Origin: Bacteroidota bacterium
Lineage (GTDB): Bacteria; Bacteroidota; Bacteroidia; Flavobacteriales_D; Crocinitomicaceae
DNA: 53,952 bases
Assembly (NCBI GenBank): GCA_016868915.1
Contig: VGFL01000004.1
Coordinates: 1-53,952 of the forward strand
Reading direction: 5' to 3'
Part shown: positions 14,302 through 18,566 of the stretch, piece by piece
Layout of the letters: every line of letters starts with the position of its first letter
Position numbering within the stretch: position 1 is the stretch's first letter
Notes under the pieces: generated by a model
The model's input: only the letters and a program-made list of their open reading frames with translations
What the model was told of the DNA's origin: nothing
Database searches by the model: none
Position numbers and translations under genes: made by a program

Positions 14302-14443
14302 GCCTTTTTTGTTTCAATTAATGCCTTAAAGTTAATCAAAGAAATTGATGAACTTTCAATCTGATTAAAATTCACGTTTTTTTTCACACTATTTATCTTT
14401 TAATTAGCTTTGGATCGCAATGGAGATTTCTCGTGTAAAGAAT

Positions 14444-15373
14444 ATGAAAATACTATACTCCTGTCTAAATTGGGGCATGGGTCACGTGGCTCGATCAATT
14501 AGTTTAATCAACACACTTGAACATCAAAATAATAGATTAATTATTGTAGGAGATTCAACACAATTAAAAATCATTCGAACATATTTTCCAGAAATTAAAA
14601 CAATTGAATTTGAGGGATATCCATTTGATTTTAGCGAAACAAAGTCATTTCATAAAGCTCTGTGGAAGCAAAAAAAAAAGTTAAATAGATTCATGAATAT
14701 TGAAAAAAAGTGGGTCTCTGAAAAAGTAATCAAATATGATATTGACCTTGTATTATCGGATCATAGATACGGCTTTCGATGTAAAAAGTGCAACTCAATT
14801 TTTATTACGCATCAAGTAAAACTTCCCCTTAAAGGATTGTATAAGATTTTTCAGTTTATACATTCCTATTGGTTACGGCAATTCGACATGTTATGGATTG
14901 TGGATAATGCGGATAAAAAATTAGCAGGAAAACTATCTTCAGTTGATTTCATTAAAAATAATTACGAATTTATTGGATTGTTATCAAGGTTTCAGCTCAA
15001 AAATAAGCCAATTATGAATGAAAAGAACGGAGTTTCCGTATTGGTTTTGAGTGGTCCAAACGTTCATCTAAATTATTTGTTTAATTACTACAATAATCAT
15101 TCTAATAAGCAATTTGTGCAAGTTATCGTTGGAGAAACCTCTGCTCTCGATAAGATACCAAAAGTAAAAGATTTCGTTTTTATGGAATCTAAAAATTGGC
15201 TTGATGTTGATGAGGTTTTGCTATCTGCAAATGAGATCTTTTCATTCATGGGTTATTCAACGTTGATGGATGCGATGTATTTAACTGCTGATTTTCATCT
15301 CATTCCTTGTCCAAATCAATGGGAACAGGAATATTTAGGCTCGATTCACCCGGAAATATTTCGGAATAGATAG
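14444..15373 (+). CDS. MurG/GtfB-like glycosyltransferase family protein
   Basis: MKILYSCLNWGMGHVARSISLINTL N-terminus; start chosen at internal ATG 14444, the ORF track start being 14420. Confidence 0.65.
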   Translation: MKILYSCLNWGMGHVARSISLINTLEHQNNRLIIVGDSTQLKIIRTYFPEIKTIEFEGYPFDFSETKSFHKALWKQKKKLNRFMNIEKKWVSEKVIKYDIDLVLSDHRYGFRCKKCNSIFITHQVKLPLKGLYKIFQFIHSYWLRQFDMLWIVDNADKKLAGKLSSVDFIKNNYEFIGLLSRFQLKNKPIMNEKNGVSVLVLSGPNVHLNYLFNYYNNHSNKQFVQVIVGETSALDKIPKVKDFVFMESKNWLDVDEVLLSANEIFSFMGYSTLMDAMYLTADFHLIPCPNQWEQEYLGSIHPEIFRNR

Positions 15374-15413: not shown

Positions 15414-17360
15414 ATGTTTTTTTGTAGATTGTTTAATTTCGTACTGATTATTTTATTTTGTCTGTCTTGCGGTTCAGATAGCATTGAAAGTAAGAAAAAG
15501 GCTTTTACTTGGGTTTATGGAGAAGTGGATAATCATAGCTATGCCAATGTTAATCAGGTTAGAACGAAGCATTTACATTTAGATTTGGATGTAAATTTTG
15601 ACAATAAAACGATTTACGGTGTGGCAAGGCACGATTTGGGGAAACACAATTCGGATACCGTTATTTTTGATACGAAATATCTACAAATTCAAAAAATAAC
15701 TTCTGGGGAAAAAGGAAAAGAAAAAGAATTAGAATTTGTTATTGGTTCATGGGATAAGGATTCAATTCTCGGGCAACCACTTATCGTTACTTTGAAAAAA
15801 TCAGAAAGGTATATTAACATATATTATCAGACAACGGCAAAAACAGCCGCATTGGACTGGTTAGAGCCATTACAAACACGAGGAAACATTCACCCAATAT
15901 TATACACCCTTGGATCACCTACTTCAACAAGAACATGGATTCCCTTGCAGGATTCACCAACAAATAGATTTACATATTCTGCCACTGTGAAAGTACCAAA
16001 AGAATTGATGGCTGTGATGAGTGCAGAGAATCAAGTAAAAAGAAATAGCGAGGGGATCTATAAATTCTCTATGAAAAAACCCATTCCAAGTTATCTAGTT
16101 GCACTATCGGTCGGTAATTATAGTTACAAGAGAATTTCAGATAAATGCGGAATTTATTCTGAATCAGAATTTTTAAGTCAAGCATCTGACGAGTTTGATG
16201 ATTTGCCAAAAATGATGCAGATTACAGAAAAAATGTTTGGTCCATATCAGTGGGGAAAATATGACTTATTAATTATGCCAAATTCTTTTCCCTATGGTGG
16301 TACAGAGAATCCTTGTCTAAACTTTATTCATCCTACGGTTTTGGCGGGAGATAAAAGTTGGTCCTTAAGTTTAGCGAACCAATTAGCTCGCTCTTGGGCA
16401 GGAAATTTAGTTACACCTCGGTCATGGAATGACCTTTGGCTTAATGAGGGCCTTACGGTTTATTTCGAGCTCCGTATTATGGAGGAACTCGAAGATGATG
16501 AATATTCAAATATGTTAACGCTTGTAAAATTTAATGAATTAAAAGAGGAAATCAAGAATTTAAAAAAAGTAAATCGTCTTGGAGATACACATTTAAAATT
16601 AGATTTGAAAAACCGAAATCCGGATACTGGAGTAACAGAAGTTTCACAAATCAAGGGAGCTCTCTTTTTCAAGACACTTGAAACAAAGGTCGGTCGTAAA
16701 AAAATTGATGAGTTTTTGGTAAATTATTTAAATTCATTTGCTTTTCAAGCGATAAGTACTGAGAAATTTATTGAGTATTTTAAAAATGAATTAATTGATC
16801 CCATCAAGCTATCTTTCAACATTGATGAATGGATTTATCAACCTGGTATTCCTAAAAATTGTATTAATGTAAATTCCAAAAGGTTGAATGAAATGCAAAA
16901 ATTTGCTCGAGAATTCGCCTCTGGAATCGATATATTTGAGCCTAAAACAATCTTCGAACCGATTCCAAAATCAAGGAAAATAAAACGTATTACCAAACAG
17001 ATCAAACGGTCCGATTATTCAACGTATGAATGGATCGAGTTTATTCGAAAATTACCAAAAAATATAAGTCCTGAAAAGCTGGCCATGGTAGATGCATACA
17101 TGAATTTTTCAAATTGGGGTAATTCTGAAGTTATGACCGAATGGTATGTTTTATCAATTCAAAGTGGTTACAAACCGGCACTATCACCGATGGAAGAGTT
17201 TATTTCACGGGTAGGAAGGAGTAAATATTTGCTCCCAATTTATGCTGCTCTAAATGAAACGGAAGAAAATAGACAACTCGCATTATCCATTTTTGAAATT
17301 GCCAAAATGAATTATCATTCCATTTCAATATCAGCAATAGAAAATCTACTTGGCTTATAA
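15414..17360 (+). CDS. M1 family (LTA4H-like) aminopeptidase homologue lacking zinc ligands; probable pseudoenzyme
   Basis: WIPLQDSPTNRFTYSATVKVP, FPYGGTENPCLNFIHPTVLAGDKSWSLSLANQLARSWAGNLVTPRSWNDLWLNEGLTVYFE; HExxH replaced by NQLAR. Confidence 0.88.
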   Translation: MFFCRLFNFVLIILFCLSCGSDSIESKKKAFTWVYGEVDNHSYANVNQVRTKHLHLDLDVNFDNKTIYGVARHDLGKHNSDTVIFDTKYLQIQKITSGEKGKEKELEFVIGSWDKDSILGQPLIVTLKKSERYINIYYQTTAKTAALDWLEPLQTRGNIHPILYTLGSPTSTRTWIPLQDSPTNRFTYSATVKVPKELMAVMSAENQVKRNSEGIYKFSMKKPIPSYLVALSVGNYSYKRISDKCGIYSESEFLSQASDEFDDLPKMMQITEKMFGPYQWGKYDLLIMPNSFPYGGTENPCLNFIHPTVLAGDKSWSLSLANQLARSWAGNLVTPRSWNDLWLNEGLTVYFELRIMEELEDDEYSNMLTLVKFNELKEEIKNLKKVNRLGDTHLKLDLKNRNPDTGVTEVSQIKGALFFKTLETKVGRKKIDEFLVNYLNSFAFQAISTEKFIEYFKNELIDPIKLSFNIDEWIYQPGIPKNCINVNSKRLNEMQKFAREFASGIDIFEPKTIFEPIPKSRKIKRITKQIKRSDYSTYEWIEFIRKLPKNISPEKLAMVDAYMNFSNWGNSEVMTEWYVLSIQSGYKPALSPMEEFISRVGRSKYLLPIYAALNETEENRQLALSIFEIAKMNYHSISISAIENLLGL

Positions 17361-17450: not shown

Positions 17451-18566
17451 ATGAATTTTATAGTATCAAGCAACACTCTTTTACGACACCTACAGAGTAT
17501 TTCAGGTGTGCTCAACGCTACTAGTAGTCTTCCTATCTTGGATAATTTTCTATTTGAAATTACTGAAAATAAGTTGACCGTAATGGCCTCAGATTTGGAA
17601 ACAACTATGATTACTCATTTAGAAGTTCAAGTGGAAGCGCCCGGAAAAATTGCAATTCCGGCAAAACTTATTTTGGATGTACTTAAAAATTTACCAGACC
17701 AACCTTGTTCTTTTAGAGTAGGGACAGATTTAGGAATTGAAATCGGTTATGACAACGGGAAATCTAAAATGGTAGGCTTTAATGCAGAAGAATATCCAAA
17801 ACTACCTGTTTTAGAAAATAAAAGTTCCGTTAAAATCACAGGAGAAATTCTTTCAAGAGCAATCAATAAAACACTTTTTGCAACAGGGAACGATGAACTT
17901 AGACCAGTAATGAGCGGTGTTTTCTGTCAGTTTTCTGAGCAAGAAATTACTTTTGTTGCTACTGATGCTCACAAATTAGTTCGTTATACACGAAAAGATT
18001 TTGCTGCTGATGGAAATGCTTCGTTCATTCTTCCTAAAAAGCCATTGAATCTTTTGAAATCTAATGTCAGAGGCGATGAAGAATTAACTATTGAGTACAA
18101 TAATTCAAATGCAATTTTTACTTTCAATGATTTAACATTGATTTGTCGTCTGATTGATGGTAAGTATCCCAATTACGAGGCAGTAATTCCTAAAGAAAAC
18201 CCGAATGTTTTAACAATAGAAAGAGCTCAATTCCTTTCATCTATTAAACGAGTTTCTATCTTTTCCAATAAGACCACGCATCAGATTAAATTGAAACTTG
18301 CAGGTTCTGAACTTCTTCTTTCTGCAGAAGATCTTGATTTTTCAAATGAAGCGAGCGAGCGCTTGGTTTGTCATTACGATGGCGACGATATGGAAATTGG
18401 ATTTAATTCAAGATTTTTGATGGATATGTTATCAAATTTGGATACTAATGAGGTACAACTAGCGATGAGTATTCCGAGTAAAGCTGGTTTATTAATGCCA
18501 AGTGCGCCTGAAAATTCTTCTGAAGACATCTTGATGTTAGTAATGCCGGTAATGATAAATCGTTAA
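17451..18566 (+). CDS. dnaN: DNA polymerase III beta subunit (sliding clamp)
   Basis: MNFIVSSNTLLRHLQSISGVLN, RPVMSGVFCQF, VATDAHKLVRY, LLMPSAPENSSEDILMLVMPVMI. Confidence 0.96.
   Translation: MNFIVSSNTLLRHLQSISGVLNATSSLPILDNFLFEITENKLTVMASDLETTMITHLEVQVEAPGKIAIPAKLILDVLKNLPDQPCSFRVGTDLGIEIGYDNGKSKMVGFNAEEYPKLPVLENKSSVKITGEILSRAINKTLFATGNDELRPVMSGVFCQFSEQEITFVATDAHKLVRYTRKDFAADGNASFILPKKPLNLLKSNVRGDEELTIEYNNSNAIFTFNDLTLICRLIDGKYPNYEAVIPKENPNVLTIERAQFLSSIKRVSIFSNKTTHQIKLKLAGSELLLSAEDLDFSNEASERLVCHYDGDDMEIGFNSRFLMDMLSNLDTNEVQLAMSIPSKAGLLMPSAPENSSEDILMLVMPVMINR

Follow-up and report, generated by a model that had tools for sequence, protein, structure and literature searches.

In human LTA4H, H295, H299 and E318 bind zinc, E271 anchors the N-terminus of the peptide, and R563 and K565 anchor its carboxylate (PMC8954237, PMC3405069). 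ColAP, the cold-active enzyme of Colwellia psychrerythraea (structure 3CIA), is classed by MEROPS in family M1, in the LTA4H/aminopeptidase B group. It was the best whole-length match, in both structure and sequence, to a protein encoded in the 53,952-nucleotide stretch of DNA analyzed here (the window). In eukaryotes, proteins of this family also serve purposes other than peptide cutting. TAF2, an M1-fold subunit of TFIID, serves as a scaffold and shows that an aminopeptidase fold can be put to structural use (PMC6220335), and Tma108 of yeast, a putative M1 aminopeptidase, is discussed as a protein that binds nascent chains and sets a precedent for an M1 pocket used in binding (PMC11266112). 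We searched the open literature and found no report of a bacterial pseudoenzyme of the LTA4H type or of any other M1 type.

The window encodes an intact protein of the LTA4H type

Translation of the gene gave a 648-aa ORF with no internal stop, as described earlier in a reading made from the DNA letters alone (the sequence-only reading). PF01433 (M1), PF17900 (M1 N-domain) and PF09127 (Leuk-A4-hydro_C) were all found above their cut-offs and in order, and the last of these agrees with that reading in placing an LTA4H-like helical domain at the C-terminus. The protein aligned over its full length with the ColAP crystal structure 3cia (E = 6.5e-128) and with human LTA4H (E about 1e-92). With three ordered domains and full-length alignments to solved members, it qualifies as a homologue within the LTA4H/ColAP subfamily of M1. 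It scored 410 bits against the TIGR02411 equivalog model (NCBIfam), below the cut-off of 762, a shortfall that may reflect bacterial divergence.

An AlphaFold model of the window protein, built with 27 homologues, had a pLDDT of 85 and a pTM of 0.82, and its TM-score to 3cia was 0.84 (query) or 0.93 (target). According to this model, the LTA4H fold is retained. The predicted lipoprotein signal peptide would place the protein in the envelope. Orthologues have LTSC- or LWSC-like lipoboxes; that of the window copy, CLSC, is somewhat less typical, which perhaps affects processing. The coordinates of all features are collected in Table 1.

Table 1. Positions of the LTA4H-type gene, its domains and active-site segments, the adjacent ORFs and one degenerate homologue
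Feature	Position	Strand	Basis or remark
LTA4H-type M1 pseudopeptidase (putative), 648 aa	15414..17360	+	Translation, alignment, Pfam; single copy in genome; synteny with G014/G030/G095
Predicted lipoprotein signal peptide ending CLS/C19G	15414..15470	+	Inferred by reading the sequence
N-terminal domain, residues 38-228	15525..16097	+	Unaccelerated in the window protein; best-kept domain in the degenerate clade
Catalytic domain, residues 229-486	16098..16871	+	Only here was the acceleration of the window branch significant
C-terminal helical domain, residues 487-648, PF09127	16872..17357	+	Pfam, AlphaFold model
Gln-loop Q166L + Q168S (LTA4H Q134, Q136 equivalents)	15909..15917	+	Ortholog comparison
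GGTENP (GGMENP in active enzymes), M297T; E298 kept (LTA4H E271, peptide N-terminus anchor)	16296..16313	+	
NQLAR replacing HELAH	16377..16391	+	H322N + H326R (two zinc ligands), E323Q (general base)
E345 kept, third zinc ligand position (LTA4H E318)	16446..16448	+	
Y412Q (LTA4H Y383)	16647..16649	+	Identical Tyr-to-Gln change in 8/10 degenerate-clade members
R602 + K604 kept (LTA4H R563, K565; carboxylate anchors)	17217..17225	+	
Glycosyltransferase-like ORF, upstream by 40 bp	14420..15373	+	Same position in sister genomes, 47% identity
dnaN-like ORF, downstream	17451..18566	+	Syntenic in sisters, 89-90% identity
L092 degenerate LTA4H-like gene	L092:5071-6909		

Catalytic residues are replaced in the window protein

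When the protein was aligned with 3cia and human LTA4H, NQLAR lay exactly over HExxH, VSQIKG over VPYVKG/VPYEKG, and E345 over the third ligand. The codons of N322, Q323, R326 and Q412 begin at 16377, 16380, 16389 and 16647, respectively. The sequence-only reading had claimed the change of HExxH to NQxxR (H>N, E>Q and H>R) at the first three of these codons, a caa codon for Gln at the fourth in place of the transition-state Tyr, a retained third-ligand region, and GGTENP instead of GGMENP; translation and alignment upheld each of these. The HExxH-(18x)-E zinc site is therefore absent, its third-ligand Glu alone remaining, and the position of the transition-state Tyr is Gln 412. In the GxMEN exopeptidase motif, which reads GGTEN, the Glu and Asn are kept and the Met is changed to Thr. 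Three points went beyond that reading: the Gln-loop is lost (Q166L, Q168S), the change is confined exactly to one species, and there is a second, older degenerate clade. Q166L and Q168S affect the equivalents of Q134 and Q136 in LTA4H.

Across 100 active orthologues, Q166, E298, H322, E323, H326, E345, Y412 and R602 were invariant. The window protein has L166, S168, N322, Q323, R326 and Q412, and keeps E298, E345, R602 and K604. Among 129 sites conserved in ≥98% of these orthologues, 13 were changed in the window protein, which is beyond chance: in a leave-one-out comparison of the active members, the maximum was 6 and the median 0. Nine of the 13 changes lie in or beside active-site motifs (Q166L, M297T, T303N, H322N, E323Q, H326R, S329A, N335P and Y412Q). 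No M1 peptidase is known to work once two zinc ligands, the general base and the transition-state Tyr are missing together, and catalysis of the usual type is therefore very unlikely here. Judging from these residues, the protein would hold no zinc and have no aminopeptidase activity.

The replacement is confined to one species of the genus

Seven M1 genes are present in the genome that contains the window (98.5% complete, 128 contigs). The sequence-only reading had proposed looking there for a second active M1 paralogue. Six of the seven fall into subgroups other than the LTA4H type, each with HExxH intact; no second LTA4H-type gene was found, and an active paralogue of this type was rejected.

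Within the genus, 82 of 86 genomes have the LTA4H-type gene. The exact HELAHSWSGN coding pattern was present in all 81 congeners with the gene and NQLAR only in the window species, which is represented by one draft genome. The inactive state is thus not shared by close relatives, and NQxxR, whose conservation among close homologues was another proposed check, is not conserved. No LTA4H gene was found in G018, G019, G034 and G092, drafts of the same genus that are 81-90% complete, owing either to loss or to assembly gaps. The earlier reading had stated that HExxH in all sister strains would count against it. At the species level, this is the pattern we observed, but it does not refute the finding, because even the closest relative, at 66% identity, belongs to another species.

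The closest orthologues, in G014, G030 and G095, are of the active type and 65-66% identical to the window protein. The window, G014 and G030 share one gene order, with clpP and clpX on one side and dnaN, rlmN, ruvB and queG on the other (names assigned by reading translations), indicating that the window gene is the ancestral gene and not an extra copy. The host is an uncultured member of the Flavobacteriales. The genome collection represents its named relatives by MAGs, and the isolate names suggest a freshwater origin for many of these. The ORF directly upstream is unusually diverged, with 47% identity to its sisters compared with 70-92% for the downstream genes, and gave only weak matches, to MJ1255/VC2487-type and Glyco_trans_1_3 models.

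Rates of change favor a loss of catalytic constraint alone

Tajima-type counts with G014 as the sister and G012 as the outgroup gave 79 changes found only in the window protein against 38 found only in the sister (chi-square about 14), an overall acceleration of 2.1-fold. The only two comparator genes that could be made, ruvB (9 v 9) and queG (16 v 20), were unaccelerated. The excess was clear in the catalytic domain, at 40 v 14 with one outgroup (chi-square 12.5) and 48 v 13 with another (chi-square 20.1). The corresponding counts were not significant for the N-domain, at 12 v 9 and 15 v 12, or for the C-domain, at 21 v 11 and 14 v 11.

The sequence-only reading had also proposed dN/dS as a check. 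Pairwise values between the window gene and its sisters were unusable owing to synonymous saturation, and we therefore wrote and fitted a codon branch model, which did reject neutrality over the whole branch. For residues 38-648, omega=1 on the window branch was rejected with a 2dlnL of 47.9, a branch that averages over the time before catalytic loss as well as after; omega values for it are rough, as saturated synonymous sites determine them poorly. Against omega=1, the per-domain 2dlnL was 28.1 for the N-domain, 17.7 for the C-domain and 6.6 for the catalytic domain, so that neutrality was weakly rejected for the catalytic domain alone. All 648 codons aligned with those of the sister with zero gaps, stops or indels. 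In simulations, a frame stayed open after 60 neutral amino-acid changes with a probability of 0.007, and the maximum-likelihood excess was about 0.21 changes per site, or about 130 changes. Taken together, the domain-limited excess, the rejection of neutrality, the gapless frame and the simulation favor a loss, undated, of catalytic constraint alone, with the remainder of the protein still needed.

These data bear directly on whether the gene is an early pseudogene, in which catalysis was lost recently, the protein is no longer needed, and stops or frameshifts have yet to appear. The restriction of the change to one species, the overall acceleration and the weak rejection of omega=1 in the catalytic domain would all suit this explanation, as would the four congeners with no LTA4H gene, which would make LTA4H dispensable if those drafts are complete at that point. 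Even so, we consider it unlikely. The acceleration is limited to the catalytic domain, the N-domain evolves like that of the active sister, and there are no indels or stops, although 60 neutral changes, fewer than half of the excess, would already leave the frame open with a probability below 0.01. A parallel clade (see below) moreover keeps an inactive version long-term. The window protein combines loss of catalytic residues with an intact frame and an intact predicted fold, and the earlier view of it as a pseudoenzyme and not a gene in free decay was supported by the absence of stops and indels, the codon model, the catalytic-domain-only excess and the retained predicted fold.

A new or residual enzymatic activity at the replaced site, using another metal or none, appears improbable. 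It could account for the retention of E298, E345, R602 and K604 and for the concentration of changes at the site, but only one of the three ligands is left, the base and the Tyr have been replaced, and the sequence shows no pattern of substitute ligands. An Arg at a metal-ligand position is unfavorable for metal, which further argues against such an activity.

A second, older clade has lost the catalytic site

A scan of species genomes returned three distant matches (31%) without any catalytic motif, and a search around these brought the total to ten species (L092, L093, L095, L114, L116, L117, L118, L119, L126 and L127). Found in another part of the same order, they encode highly degenerate LTA4H-like lipoproteins with about 31% identity or less to the window protein. 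The ten proteins formed one clade (SH-aLRT 100) apart from the window protein, which grouped with the active sisters L009/L010/L039 (SH-aLRT 99). As long branches are involved, we are unsure whether this clade reflects one loss or several. In the eight members with readable surroundings, the locus is conserved and contains POT-family transporter, TatD-like, ThiF-like and LTA4H genes. The LTA4H genes of G129 and G130 are active and lie in the same TatD-ThiF-LTA4H order, indicating that the degenerate genes are the ancestral gene in place; with L092 as the query, no other LTA4H match was found in the degenerate-clade genomes. A still more diverged LTA4H relic of 598 aa, with an open frame and a PF09127 match, lies at the same TatD-ThiF locus in G121 (L176:8148-9941); the tree placement of this eleventh case is unsure. 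A link to loss of oligopeptide transporters was rejected, since no co-loss was seen and POT-family genes are present in the window genome and its relatives.

Purifying selection on the degenerate clade after the loss is strong. Pairwise dN/dS between its close species was 0.10-0.15, and omega was 0.056 (six species) compared with 0.043 in a comparable active set. For the catalytic core the values were 0.050 and 0.002, respectively, indicating that selection still holds the degenerate core, though without the special constraint seen in active enzymes. The median identity of L092 to active orthologues was 47% in the N-domain, 24% in the catalytic domain and 21% in the C-domain, and 55 of the 90 columns invariant in the clade fall in the N-domain. 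All members lack every peptide anchor, and Cys19 is invariant. The AlphaFold model of L092 was weaker than that of the window protein (pLDDT 71), with a TM-score of about 0.7 to 3cia.

The window protein and this clade have Q166L, Y412Q and F439L in common, which might suggest one pseudoenzyme family that arose from one loss or from a shared pseudo-ancestor; these states may instead be due to chance or to the cleft having been remodeled in a similar way. We consider it highly improbable, and disfavored by the data, that the inactive state goes back to common descent: the window protein sits with active sisters, the genomic loci differ, and forcing it into the degenerate clade was rejected by the AU test (p=0.03), albeit with a modest difference in likelihood. 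Catalysis was apparently lost independently in at least two lineages of the order, the window species and the degenerate clade. A sequencing, assembly or strain artefact, which a single draft genome among congeners that all have HELAH might bring to mind, is scarcely credible, and sequencing error was rejected, given no fewer than 13 changes spread over sites that are conserved elsewhere, many of them separate missense codons with co-substitutions around the site, a Tyr-to-Gln change that needs two base changes, a frame open throughout, and syntenic flanking genes of normal divergence.

Proposed role and relation to known M1 proteins

We judge, with a probability of roughly 0.68, that the window protein is a once-active, vertically inherited periplasmic lipoprotein of the LTA4H/ColAP type that is now non-catalytic, and that it is kept as a folded protein under selection for another role. 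The ancestor would have been an active aminopeptidase, and catalysis would have been lost in the window lineage through replacements at two zinc-ligand positions, at the general base and the transition-state Tyr, and in the Gln-loop. Some lineages may have become able to do without catalysis, possibly because LTA4H is covered for by other aminopeptidases of the same cell. As both losses were independent and selection apparently still preserves the protein, it probably has a job other than peptide cutting.

What this job might be is suggested by the parts that were kept. The second job of the envelope lipoprotein would depend on the folded protein, above all on the N-domain, for example by holding a periplasmic partner or complex. 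We infer a scaffold or partner-binding role acting mainly through the N-terminal domain. With the anchors E298, R602 and K604 kept and the Gln-loop lost, the window copy could possibly bind peptides, one of the roles suggested in the sequence-only reading, and residual capture through E298 and R602/K604 may occur; in the degenerate clade, capture at that site would be unlikely. An N-domain-based structural role fits both groups better than peptide binding does, because the window protein lost the Gln-loop and the degenerate clade lost all anchors. As a guess, R326 may pair with E345 or E298 at the former zinc site. The chances are about even that LTA4H-like lipoproteins of the Flavobacteriales in general have a second, non-catalytic, mainly N-domain function that keeps the protein after catalysis is lost.

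The inactivation of a bacterial M1 enzyme at least twice, with frame, fold and N-domain kept, implies that the protein has a non-catalytic role, one that has escaped notice because it is masked by the active enzyme. If true, the two independent catalytic losses would be a natural experiment separating two functions of a bacterial M1 enzyme. As active, lineage-specifically inactivated and anciently inactivated orthologues occur in one order, this role can be tested by comparison. Annotation pipelines that call such proteins aminopeptidases would be wrong.

Compared with known systems, the window protein has the same three domains as ColAP and keeps the Glu that binds the N-terminal amine and the carboxylate-binding Arg/Lys, but has NQLAR and Gln where ColAP has HELAH and the catalytic Tyr. 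It likewise shares with human LTA4H the fold, the PF09127 domain and the equivalents of E271, R563 and K565, but has lost those of H295, E296, H299, Y383 and Q134/Q136. The degenerate clade resembles the window protein in gene family, order, lost catalytic site, intact frame and retained N-domain, and differs in forming a separate clade at a separate locus, in being far more diverged and spread over ten species, and in having lost all peptide anchors. TFIID chains were among the fold matches of the degenerate clade; TAF2 is, however, eukaryotic, nuclear and much larger, with a four-domain arrangement and no close sequence relation to the window protein. Tma108 keeps nearly all active-site residues and belongs to another subfamily and another cell compartment. 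M1 pseudoenzymes are already known from the eukaryotic precedents TAF2 and Tma108, and the window protein would add a bacterial one of the LTA4H type.
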